The translations under genes and the position numbers were made by a program. DNA of 64,000 bases from Opitutia bacterium (GTDB taxonomy: Bacteria; Verrucomicrobiota; Verrucomicrobiia; Opitutales; UBA953). Shown one piece after another: positions 40,301 through 43,521 of this stretch; positions within the stretch are counted from its first letter, which is position 1, and every line of letters starts with the position of its first letter. Where the stretch lies: contig CANIUQ010000004.1 of assembly GCA_947470855.1 (NCBI GenBank), positions 1 to 64,000 of the forward strand, in the 5' to 3' direction. The notes below the pieces were generated by a model. The model made no database searches. It was not told the origin of the DNA and saw nothing but the letters and a program-made list of their open reading frames with translations.

Positions 40301-42535
40301 TTATCCTTGATTACTTTCGCCTTCGTTAGCGCGCTCGCGGAAAGGACGACGGGCTGGTCGGTCTTCACGCGGACGATCAAAACTAGGCTTAGGAGCAGGC
40401 ACGTATTCGCGACCTTCCTTCTCGGCGATGGCTGCACGACGAGAGAGACGTACACGTCCTTTATCGTCGATACCCACACACTTAACGATGATTTCATCGC
40501 CAAGTTTAACGATGTCTTCGACCCGATTAACGCGGAAGTCGGCAAGCTCGGAAATGTGGACGAGTCCTTCTTGACCAGGGAGACATTCCACAAAGGCACC
40601 AAATTCTTTCACCGAGCGAACGATACCTTTGTAGGTTTTATCCAACTCGATTTGTGCAGAGATAAGGTTCACTTCGTTAACGGCACGAGCGAGTTTTTCA
40701 CCATCGGTAGCGAAAATCGTAATCCAACCCGAATCATCTTGGTCGATATCGATTTGGCAACCGGTGTACTCGGTGATGCGTTTGATGTTCTTACCACCAG
40801 GACCGATGAGAGCACCGATTTTCTCGGCGGGAATCTTCATGCGGTGTGTACGTGGAGCATGCGATTTAAGCTCAGCACGAGGAGCAGCAATCGAAGCTTC
40901 CATGTAACCAAGAATCTGGTCACGGGTTACTTTGTTTTGCATGATTGCTTCCTTCGCGATTTCAATCGGCAAGCCGTGGATTTTCAGGTCCAACTGGAAG
41001 CCCGTGATACCTTCGCGGGTACCGCAAATCTTGAAGTCCATGTCACCATAGTGATCTTCGGCGCCGATGATATCGGTAAGCACGCGGTGCTTCACCACTT
41101 TGCCGTCTTTTTCTTCGGTCACGAGACCGCAAGAAATGCCAGCAACAGGAGCCTTAATCGGCACACCCGCATCCATCAAAGCCAAGGTACCACCGCAAAC
41201 TGAGGCCATCGAGGTCGAACCATTGGATTCCATGATTTCAGAAACCAAACGAATGGAATACGGAAAATCTTGCTCTGAAGGCAGAACGGAAAGCAAGGAA
41301 CGCTCAGCGAGATTACCGTGACCGGTTTCACGACGGCTAGTTACACCGAAACGACCCGTCTCACCGACTGAGAATGGAGGGAAGTTGTAGTGTAAGAGGA
41401 ATGACTTCGATTTCGGTCCGCCCGTAATGGAGTCCAATTCCTGAACATCCTTGGAGGTACCGAGCGTTGCTAAAACAAGACCTTGTGTTTCACCACGCTG
41501 GAAAATAGCTGAACCGTGAACACGCGGAAGCACATCGACTTGGCAAGAAATCGCACGCAAATCTTTAGTACCACGTCCATCGGCACGCTGACCTTTTTCG
41601 ATAATCGCCGAACGATAGACTTTCTCTTGGAGTTTTTCGAAAGCCATCTTGATATGACGAGCGTCGAAGCCATCGCCTAATTCAGCTTGGCAAGCCGCTT
41701 TCGCTTTTTCGATGACAGCCTTCACCGCATCACCACGCTCTTTTTTCGAGGCTAAGAAGATAGCCTTTTGCAATTGGTCGCCTTCGGCGGCAACGCGTTC
41801 GCAAATCGCCAAAGCTTTCGGTTCGCACACTACGAGAGGGAAAACTTTTTTCTTCTTCGCACAAAGAGCGGCCAATTTACGTTGAGCAGCAATAATGGGC
41901 TGAATCGCACGATGAGCAAAATCCAACGCTGCAATGAAATCAGCTTCAGGGATTTGATCCGCTGAACCTTCAATCATCATCATGTCATTTTCATTTCCGA
42001 CATAGATTAAATCTAAGTCTGAAGCGAATTGCTGTTCGTGGGTTGGATTAGCGATGAATTGACCATCGATTCGGGCAACACGCACACATCCGATTGGACC
42101 GTTCCAAGGGATATCGGAGCAAAGTAAAGCGGCGGAAGCACCGTTCACCATGAGCACATCAGGTTCATTAACTTGGTCAGCCGAAAGCAGTAAACCGATA
42201 ACCTGTACTTCGTTTAGAAAACCCTCAGGGAAAAGAGGGCGAAGAGGACGATCGCAAAGACGCGACGTTAAGATTTCCTTGTCCGAAGGTTTTCCTTCGC
42301 GACGGAAGTAACCACCTGGGAAACGTCCCGCGGCGGCAAATTTCTCGCGAAAATCTACCGTTAAAGGGAAGAAATCTTGATCAGGTGAACGCAGCTCCTC
42401 TGCGGCGGTCGCAGAAACGAAGACGATTGTCTCGCCCTTGCGAATCGTTACGGAGCCATTCGCTAAACGTGCTAAGGATCCAGTGCTGATAGTGATACCG
42501 AGTTCCTCGATAGTCACGGAGTGTTGTTGTTTCAT
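40301..42535 (-). CDS. pnp: Polyribonucleotide nucleotidyltransferase (PNPase)
   Basis: 744 residues, ATG start. Two RNase PH-like domains (first with [26 protein letters not shown], second with [15 protein letters not shown] and [27 protein letters not shown]), a KH domain ([14 protein letters not shown]) and an S1 domain ([29 protein letters not shown]). The tail is Arg/Pro-rich ([17 protein letters not shown]). PNPase degrades RNA 3' to 5' with phosphate. Directly downstream of rpsO, the classic rpsO-pnp order, with hairpins in the 121-base gap where processing or autoregulation could act. Confidence 0.97.
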
Positions 42536-42558: not shown

Positions 42559-42625
42559 GCGGAATTGCCTAGCGGTTTTTATTTTTTTTGGGTGAAAAGG
42601 CAACGTCCCAGCGTGAGCTGGGACG
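42559..42625 (-). terminator. Hairpins in the rpsO-pnp spacer
   Basis: CGTCCCAGC (42604-42612) and GCTGGGACG (42617-42625) form a perfect 9-bp stem followed on the minus strand by TTGCCTTTT, a probable partial terminator after rpsO. A smaller AGGC/GCCT hairpin lies at 42557-42570 in the A-rich pnp leader. In other bacteria this spacer carries a terminator and RNase III site controlling pnp. Confidence 0.6.
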
Positions 42626-42656
42626 CGCGAAGTAATCCTACGCCGAAGCGGACAAA

Positions 42657-42917
42657 TTACTTACGCAAATTGAGCTTAACAATTAAGGCGTTATAGCGGT
42701 CTAAATTACTAGACTTAAGGTAATTGAGCAGCTTTCGACGACGGTTGGTCAGCATGATAAGACCGCGACGCGAGTGAAAATCTTTACGATGATCCCGTAG
42801 GTGCTCAGTGAGGTGATTAATCCGACCAGTGAGAAGAGCGACTTGGACTTCTGGTGAACCTGTGTCCTTGGCGTCTTGCTGGTTGGCTTTGATGATTTCC
42901 GACTTATTGTATGACAT
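42657..42917 (-). CDS. rpsO: 30S ribosomal protein S15
   Basis: 86 residues, ATG start. Typical S15 sequence: [36 protein letters not shown] then [10 protein letters not shown]15 is a primary 16S rRNA-binding protein and in several bacteria represses its own mRNA by binding a structured leader; here a GC-rich multi-hairpin element lies just upstream (42952-43049). Followed by pnp. Confidence 0.98.
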
Positions 42918-42951
42918 ATGTTTTGGTTAGTTTTTTGGGGAGTTTGGCCGA

Positions 42952-43049
42952 CTTGGGAGGAATTCCCGAGGACCCGCCGAATGGCCGGTACCTCCGTCTG
43001 GAGAGAGCTTTCGCTCCCCGGCCAGCGTGAGAAGGGCTCCGCCCCTCTC
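42952..43049 (-). ncRNA. GC-rich structured element upstream of rpsO (candidate S15 leader or small RNA)
   Basis: Three consecutive stems: CTTGGGA/TCCCGAG (42952-42970, one G-T pair), GGCCGG/CCGGCC (42983-42988 with 43018-43023, with an inner GAGC/GCTC stem), and GAGAAGGGC/GCCCCTCTC (43029-43049, one mismatch). GC content is visibly far above the flanking AT-rich sequence. The element ends 35 bases before rpsO on the minus strand, so an autoregulatory leader is the first reading. The strand is not proven. Confidence 0.5.
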
Positions 43050-43224
43050 CCTAACGAAGTTGAACCCAATACGTGACAGGTAGAACTACCCTAGGCAAGC
43101 CGGAATATAAGTGAAATTTATCGAGATTTTTAGGGTGATAAATCGTCAAACTAGGGAAGTTTAGACAAAGCGGCTTTGGATTAGCCCGTTGACTCTCTCC
43201 CTGCTGGCTTTGGAATAAAAAGTC
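43050..43224. other. Remainder of the rpsO/yhbY divergent intergenic region
   Basis: AT-rich sequence without a gene. It should hold the promoters of rpsO (minus) and yhbY-ispA (plus). No clear -35/-10 pair. An imperfect TTTATC/GATAAA repeat lies around 43117-43143. Confidence 0.4.
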
Positions 43225-43521
43225 ATGCACGATGAACATTCCAGTCTGACGGGTGCGGAACGCGGCAAACTACGCGGTCTGGCTCAAACGCTCGACCCCA
43301 AAGTCTTTGTCGGCAAAGCAGGCATCAATCCTGGCATCGCTAAACTCTTAAACGATGCATTCAAAAATGCCGATTTAGTTAAAGTGCGTTTTACAGCGGA
43401 AAGAGATCTAATGGAGCAACAAGCTCAAGAACTGGCCAAACTGACGCAGAGCGAAGTAATTGGTAGCGTTGGTCGAACAGCGACCTTCTTTCGATTAGGA
43501 TCATCCGCTTCGGCTGAATAA
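43225..43521 (+). CDS. yhbY: YhbY-family RNA-binding protein
   Basis: 98 residues, ATG start. A single CRM/YhbY domain: LTGAERGKLRGLAQTLDPKVFVGKAGINPG (8-37), then LVKVRF, and IGSVGRTATFFRLG near the end. YhbY associates with pre-50S ribosomes. Two bases separate it from the isoprenoid synthase gene. Divergent from rpsO. Confidence 0.93.
   Translation: MHDEHSSLTGAERGKLRGLAQTLDPKVFVGKAGINPGIAKLLNDAFKNADLVKVRFTAERDLMEQQAQELAKLTQSEVIGSVGRTATFFRLGSSASAE

Follow-up and report, generated by a model that had tools for sequence, protein, structure and literature searches.

In Escherichia coli, the leader of rpsO, the gene for ribosomal protein S15, forms a pseudoknot over the Shine-Dalgarno (SD) sequence and the start, and traps the 30S subunit. 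The site that S15 binds on the 16S rRNA consists of a three-way junction and, about one turn from it, a GU/GC motif (PMC4684408). The Geobacillus/Bacillus (Gk) leader carries a GU/GC motif about one helical turn from its junction and has been proposed to mimic both S15 determinants of the rRNA, while the Thermus thermophilus leader is recognised through its junction and has a G-G mismatch in place of the GU/GC motif (PMC4684408). Three further leaders have been described from Alphaproteobacteria, Actinobacteria and Chlamydiae. The ribosome binding site lies in the 3' helix in the first two, a hairpin covers the start codon in the chlamydial one, and only the alphaproteobacterial leader was validated in that study (PMC4137082). 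Flavobacterial and archaeal candidates have been predicted by covariation in a survey that does not mention Verrucomicrobia or Opitutae (PMC7247131).

We analysed an element upstream of rpsO in a 64,000-nucleotide stretch of DNA (the window) from a bacterium of the order Opitutales. Like the Gk leader it is a multi-helix junction in the rpsO 5' UTR, but it shows no likeness by eye to Firmicutes rpsO upstream sequences (L050, L055), and it has a 5' pseudoknot, a helix (P2) enclosing three hairpins and no SD. It resembles the E. coli leader (RF00114) in having a pseudoknot and, putatively, GU/GC-type recognition, but its pseudoknot closes upstream, an SD is absent and Rfam gives no match. Its helix P4 mostly has a G.G pair, as in the Thermus leader, which belongs to a distant phylum and was compared by description only. 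The alphaproteobacterial, actinobacterial and chlamydial leaders are likewise clade-restricted and found by comparative genomics, but differ in architecture by their descriptions; the flavobacterial and archaeal candidates are also rpsO leaders predicted by covariation, but in other phyla.

At the gathering score, Rfam 15 has no match in the window or in 12 loci of the order; this includes RF00114, which does not match the leader at E<=10 either. The sub-threshold matches SMAD5-AS1_3, Ref55 and sn2343 are all on the plus strand, far below the gathering score, and were rejected as chance. A literature search of journals other than subscription ones found no verrucomicrobial or Opitutales rpsO leader. 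Judged from sequence comparison, the element is very probably a switch, absent from the catalogues, through which S15 regulates how much of it is made.

Architecture of the rpsO leader

The features of the locus are as follows.

40301-42535, minus strand: pnp (PNPase, by its Pfam domains), downstream of rpsO on the same strand
42603-42626, minus strand: terminator-like hairpin between rpsO and pnp
42657-42917, minus strand: rpsO (ribosomal protein S15, 86 aa; PF00312, 119 bits)
42917, minus strand: start codon ATG of rpsO
42918-42944, minus strand: A/C-rich unstructured tail up to the start codon, without SD
42945-43059, minus strand: whole conserved leader element (CUUCGUUAG ... GUCGGCCA), as matched by model R1 in its own genome
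42945-42950, minus strand: P2 3' strand CGGCCA, pairing with 43019-43024; genus and order covariation
42955-42967, minus strand: P5 hairpin GGGA..UCCC (strands 42964-42967 with 42955-42958); A-U to G-C in the genus, 6 of 7 pairs covary in the order
42968-42994, minus strand: P4 hairpin (strands 42983-42994 with 42968-42978); 7 of 10 pairs change on both sides in the order
G42986.G42975 stacked on G42985-C42976, minus strand: non-canonical pair in P4, candidate S15 determinant of the GU/GC type
42995-42998, minus strand: pseudoknot 3' strand GACG, adjoining P4; covaries with 43053-43056
43003-43018, minus strand: P3 hairpin with a GNAA-type loop; both-side changes in 4 of 6 pairs in the genus and 6 of 6 in the order
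43019-43024, minus strand: P2 5' strand UGGCCG, of the long-range helix closing the junction; genus and order covariation
43022-43027 with 42995-43001, minus strand: alternative helix CGCUGG with CCAGACG, seen in the genus only; excludes P2 and the pseudoknot
43029-43049, minus strand: P1 hairpin (GAGAGGGG..CCCUUCUC; strands 43042-43049 with 43029-43036), found by folding; both-side changes in 10 of 11 pairs of alignment A4
43053-43056, minus strand: pseudoknot 5' strand CGUU; covaries with 42995-42998 across lineages
43070-43099, minus strand: CTTGC...GTCA, a conserved sequence resembling a promoter, directly upstream of the element in nearly all genus leaders holding this region

From 5' to 3' the RNA reads CGUUAG, P1, the 5' strand of P2, P3, NACGG, P4, P5, the 3' strand of P2 and the A/C-rich tail. 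P2 encloses P3, P4 and P5, and besides the five helices there is a 4-bp pseudoknot between the 5' CGUN and the NACG before P4. The initial annotation had noticed a GC-rich island in AT-rich intergenic DNA, and this observation is borne out: the G+C content is 0.60-0.67 over 42940-43079 against 0.35-0.45 on either side, and the region folds better than shuffled sequences. The three stems it described correspond to P1, P4 and P5, while P3, the closing helix P2 and the pseudoknot had been missed. Its extent of 42952-43049 lies within the conserved element, which is larger, and its distance of 35 bases to rpsO is 34 nt from that boundary and 27 nt from the end of P2 to the ATG, with both rpsO and the RNA placed on the minus strand.

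The 143-nt leader on the rpsO strand folds at -61.4 kcal/mol, where dinucleotide shuffles give -48.7 +/- 4.1 (z -3.1) and one in 200 folds as well, and the whole 325-nt intergenic region has a fold z of -3.4 (0 of 100 shuffles as good). The plus strand folds less well (z -2.3). A search of the whole genome with R1 found the element in a single copy.

The gene yhbY lies divergent from rpsO at 43225. The gene upstream of the leader differs between the window's genus and other families, and the leader is kept. The hairpin between rpsO and pnp is strong, and the E. coli rpsO-pnp boundary has one likewise. The conserved CTTGC...GTCA is presumably a promoter; it has an unusual -10 sequence, and a sigma-70 scan found no promoter at 43070-43099 of the minus strand. 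Its presence and the position of the element suggest that the element is transcribed together with rpsO.

Covariation and distribution in Opitutales

Upstream sequence was readable for 43 leaders of the genus, and in each of them the element stands immediately before rpsO. In the genus alignment A1 (37 distinct sequences), 97.3% of the helix cells are paired, 68 cells show double changes where shuffles would give 21, and covariation scores 0.211 compared with at most 0.078 for slid partners. Most of this covariation sits in P3 and P4, and one P2 pair occurs as C-G, U-G and U-A; the pseudoknot is invariant and P1 varies on one side only, so that these two carry little information within the genus.

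Leaders of four other genera of the family and of the Opitutaceae follow the same plan, and the genus model R1 matches Opitutaceae and sister-genus leaders (L123 at 51.5 bits, L041 at 43.6 and L127 at 38.5). In the Opitutaceae alignment A2 (14 sequences), 20 of 46 pairs change on both sides, which none of 500 shuffles equalled. The covariance model R2, made from A2, matches leaders in other families, and the 38-sequence order alignment A4 resulted from this. In A4, both partners vary in 37 of 46 pairs, and the score is 0.625, while slid controls reach 0.155 at most. The fitting of A4 to the model favours the model helices; the pseudoknot is in no model and its count is therefore independent.

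The pseudoknot partners were listed for 42 lineages, curated by eye, in place of a regular-expression survey that was partly mis-registered. They are CGUU:AACG (21), CGCU:AGCG (6), CGUU:AGCG (4), CGUC:GACG (3), CGUU:GACG (2) and CGUG:CACG (1), and five of the 42 have one mismatch. At the variable positions 79 of 84 cells are paired (72 Watson-Crick) against 70 (56) in shuffles, with 0 of 20,000 shuffles as good, related lineages not being independent of each other. The strength of this evidence lies in the distinct double changes, from U-A to C-G at two positions and from U-A to G-C. Read in the rpsO sense, the helix cells hold 176 G-U against 4 A-C in the genus, and 160 against 45 in the order. 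The functional RNA is thus on the rpsO strand, since an RNA of the opposite strand would show the reverse.

R2, built from Opitutaceae only, did not find the window, and we therefore built R3 from 25 R2 matches with the window's genus left out (alignment A3, which includes one spurious 10-bit row, L040 1741-1796). R3 matches the window at 42947-43059 with 39.9 bits (E 2e-6), and it matches 43 of the 52 Opitutales leaders left out of its building, among which the Opitutaceae are relatives of the R2 seed and less independent than the others. The nine misses are L133, L135, L136, L145, L149, L152, L153, L154 and L183; several show parts of the plan by eye, and the element may be absent from L149, L154 and L183, as possible losses. 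The genomes of family f24 gave no S15 match with the query used.

Over whole genomes, R3 matches in 120 of 226 Opitutales genomes and 55 of 81 genera, with filters strict enough to miss the window's own genus. Among 97 genome matches checked against the rpsO positions, 95 lie 15-102 nt upstream of S15 homology on the same strand and one lies at 123 nt. The remaining one (G252 C127, L241:193-324; 59.7 bits) is a stray, degenerate copy of the leader. It precedes an ATG and a very short ORF rather than rpsO, with a mismatched pseudoknot (CGUA:AACG), in a genome whose contamination is 7% or less by its own estimate. A second match in G078 lies at the end of a contig and again corresponds to rpsO. 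The association of the element with rpsO is order-wide. Neither R2 nor R3 gave a match in the 40 rpsO leaders that represent other orders in the class, and R2 found nothing convincing outside Opitutales over 288 genomes of the phylum. In the data searched, the element is kept across the order Opitutales and is not seen beyond it. The covariance search across Opitutae that the initial annotation had proposed as a check was passed decisively, and the distribution found is that of the order Opitutales and not of Verrucomicrobiota as a whole.

Start region and possible S15 recognition

An SD-like 4-mer occurs in one of 85 distinct Opitutales rpsO tails, and the tails are 81% A+C. The window's genes are similar: one of 49 long ORFs (at least 150 aa, crude ORF calls) has such a 4-mer, compared with 12% of control stretches, and G is depleted at -12 to -2, SD usage being estimated from the window's ORFs only. 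No 16S rRNA was found in the window's genome assembly. Those of two other Opitutales families (L233 and L234) end in ...GGATCACCTCCTTTC and keep the CCUCC anti-SD. An SD-scarce group with conserved CCUCC, some Verrucomicrobia included, has been published (PMC10783764), and the SD scarcity and kept anti-SD of Opitutales fit it.

Hiding of an SD is unlikely because the window's genes are without one, and a leader that sequesters the SD is disfavoured by the lack of an SD in the tail. Transcription attenuation is disfavoured as well, since no intrinsic terminator was found between the element and the ATG (42918-43059, minus strand). Control of 30S access would be the remaining standard route.

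The alternative helix CGCUGG with CCAGACG is kept in the window's genus and was not seen in other genera. Its CCAGACG strand contains the pseudoknot strand, and its CGCUGG can pair with the 3' strand of P2 instead. The two folds are isoenergetic (-61.4 kcal/mol for the alternative, -61.0 for P2, with the pseudoknot uncounted), and the minimum-energy fold of the window's leader is the alternative one by 0.4 kcal/mol. The RNAalifold structure of the genus, which put this helix over P2, was rejected as it stood, since the helix is nearly invariant and absent elsewhere, and P2 covaries. Being genus-specific and nearly invariant, the helix is only suggestive of a two-state switch in this genus.

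P4 has a conserved G.G or G.U pair within 5'-CGGC/5'-GC(G/U)G, which in the aligned consensus is 8 pairs away from the junction. Of the 37 order leaders that have a letter at the position facing the first G of this pair, 26 show G and 10 show U; in the genus it is always one of the two. About a quarter of the order leaders have the GU/GC form 5'-GG/5'-CU, and most have G.G on G-C. The GU/GC motif is also present in the 16S rRNA of the order, as read by eye. The P4 pair on G-C is probably a partial mimic of the S15 determinant of the rRNA; the mimicry of helix 22 is imperfect, G.G being commoner in P4 than G.U.

Probable ligand and proposed mode of action

We read the element as a cis-acting leader of the rpsO(-pnp) mRNA. 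Most likely it serves S15 autoregulation and represents a structural class that is new and restricted to Opitutales. The initial annotation had raised such a class as a possibility, and it gains support from the covariation, the tracking of rpsO in the sense strand only and the lack of an Rfam match. We infer that S15 binds the element and represses rpsO.

The strongest competitor, though an unlikely one, is that this is a cis-regulatory leader of rpsO-pnp that answers to something other than S15, such as a small molecule, a different ribosomal protein, or processing by PNPase or an RNase. In E. coli, PNPase regulates the mRNA that encodes it, and each of the 38 loci checked has pnp after rpsO on the rpsO strand, so that PNPase is not separable from S15 as a ligand by genomic association alone. 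However, the element lies directly before rpsO, which adjoins it in all families, a terminator-like hairpin stands between rpsO and pnp in the window, and P4 resembles an S15 determinant. S15 leaders have been reinvented repeatedly (PMC4137082, PMC4684408) and recur in many phyla (PMC4137082, PMC7247131), and the known ligands of ribosomal protein leaders are all encoded by a regulated gene (PMC7247131). The position of the leader next to rpsO and the wide recurrence of S15 leaders make S15 a far likelier ligand than PNPase.

GC-rich 5' hairpins can stabilise mRNAs, and rpsO, like other genes of the window, starts in an unstructured region without an SD, which would suit a constitutive, ligand-free part of the rpsO 5' UTR serving as a transcript stabiliser or ribosome standby site. 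This reading is improbable, as a stabiliser needs no five covarying helices across an order, nor a pseudoknot and conserved junction nucleotides. It is more improbable still that the element is an independent small RNA on either strand that stands before rpsO by coincidence, as the initial annotation had allowed. That the GC island is compact and has a conserved promoter-like sequence to itself would agree with this, but 96 of the 97 genome matches compared stand before rpsO in its own orientation, at 15-123 nt, no terminator-like site separates the element from the ATG, and the excess of G-U over A-C in the rpsO sense speaks against an antisense RNA. Chance GC-rich stems in an AT-rich spacer, to which the modest fold z of about -3 might by itself have pointed, are refuted by the order-wide covariation and the detection by a held-out model.

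For the S15 leader, we tentatively propose a mode of action without an SD. Surplus S15 would bind the pseudoknotted junction and P4, whose G.G/G.U-on-G-C pair lies roughly one helical turn off and is similar to the GU/GC determinant in helix 22 of the 16S rRNA. In such a complex P2 and the pseudoknot would be locked some 15-30 nt ahead of the AUG, and the locked leader would block or trap the 30S subunit at the unstructured, SD-less start, so that the synthesis of S15, and possibly of PNPase, falls. In the window's genus the isoenergetic alternative helix might be the S15-free (ON) state. A new class in which S15 locks a pseudoknotted four-helix junction and so denies the 30S subunit this start, perhaps with a switch in the genus between P2 plus the pseudoknot and CGCUGG:CCAGACG, is possible, and we hold it with clearly less confidence than the S15 leader itself.

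S15 leaders are a main model for the convergent evolution of RNA regulators, and Opitutales would gain an S15 regulator of its own, apparently unrelated to the described classes. With a multi-helix junction, a pseudoknot and a candidate GU/GC mimic in one RNA, it would offer an independent case for the rules of recognition that other leaders have suggested. The leader alignment could become an Rfam family by submission. Genes without an SD, together with an anti-SD in the related 16S rRNAs, would make Opitutales a system for translational autoregulation without the SD.
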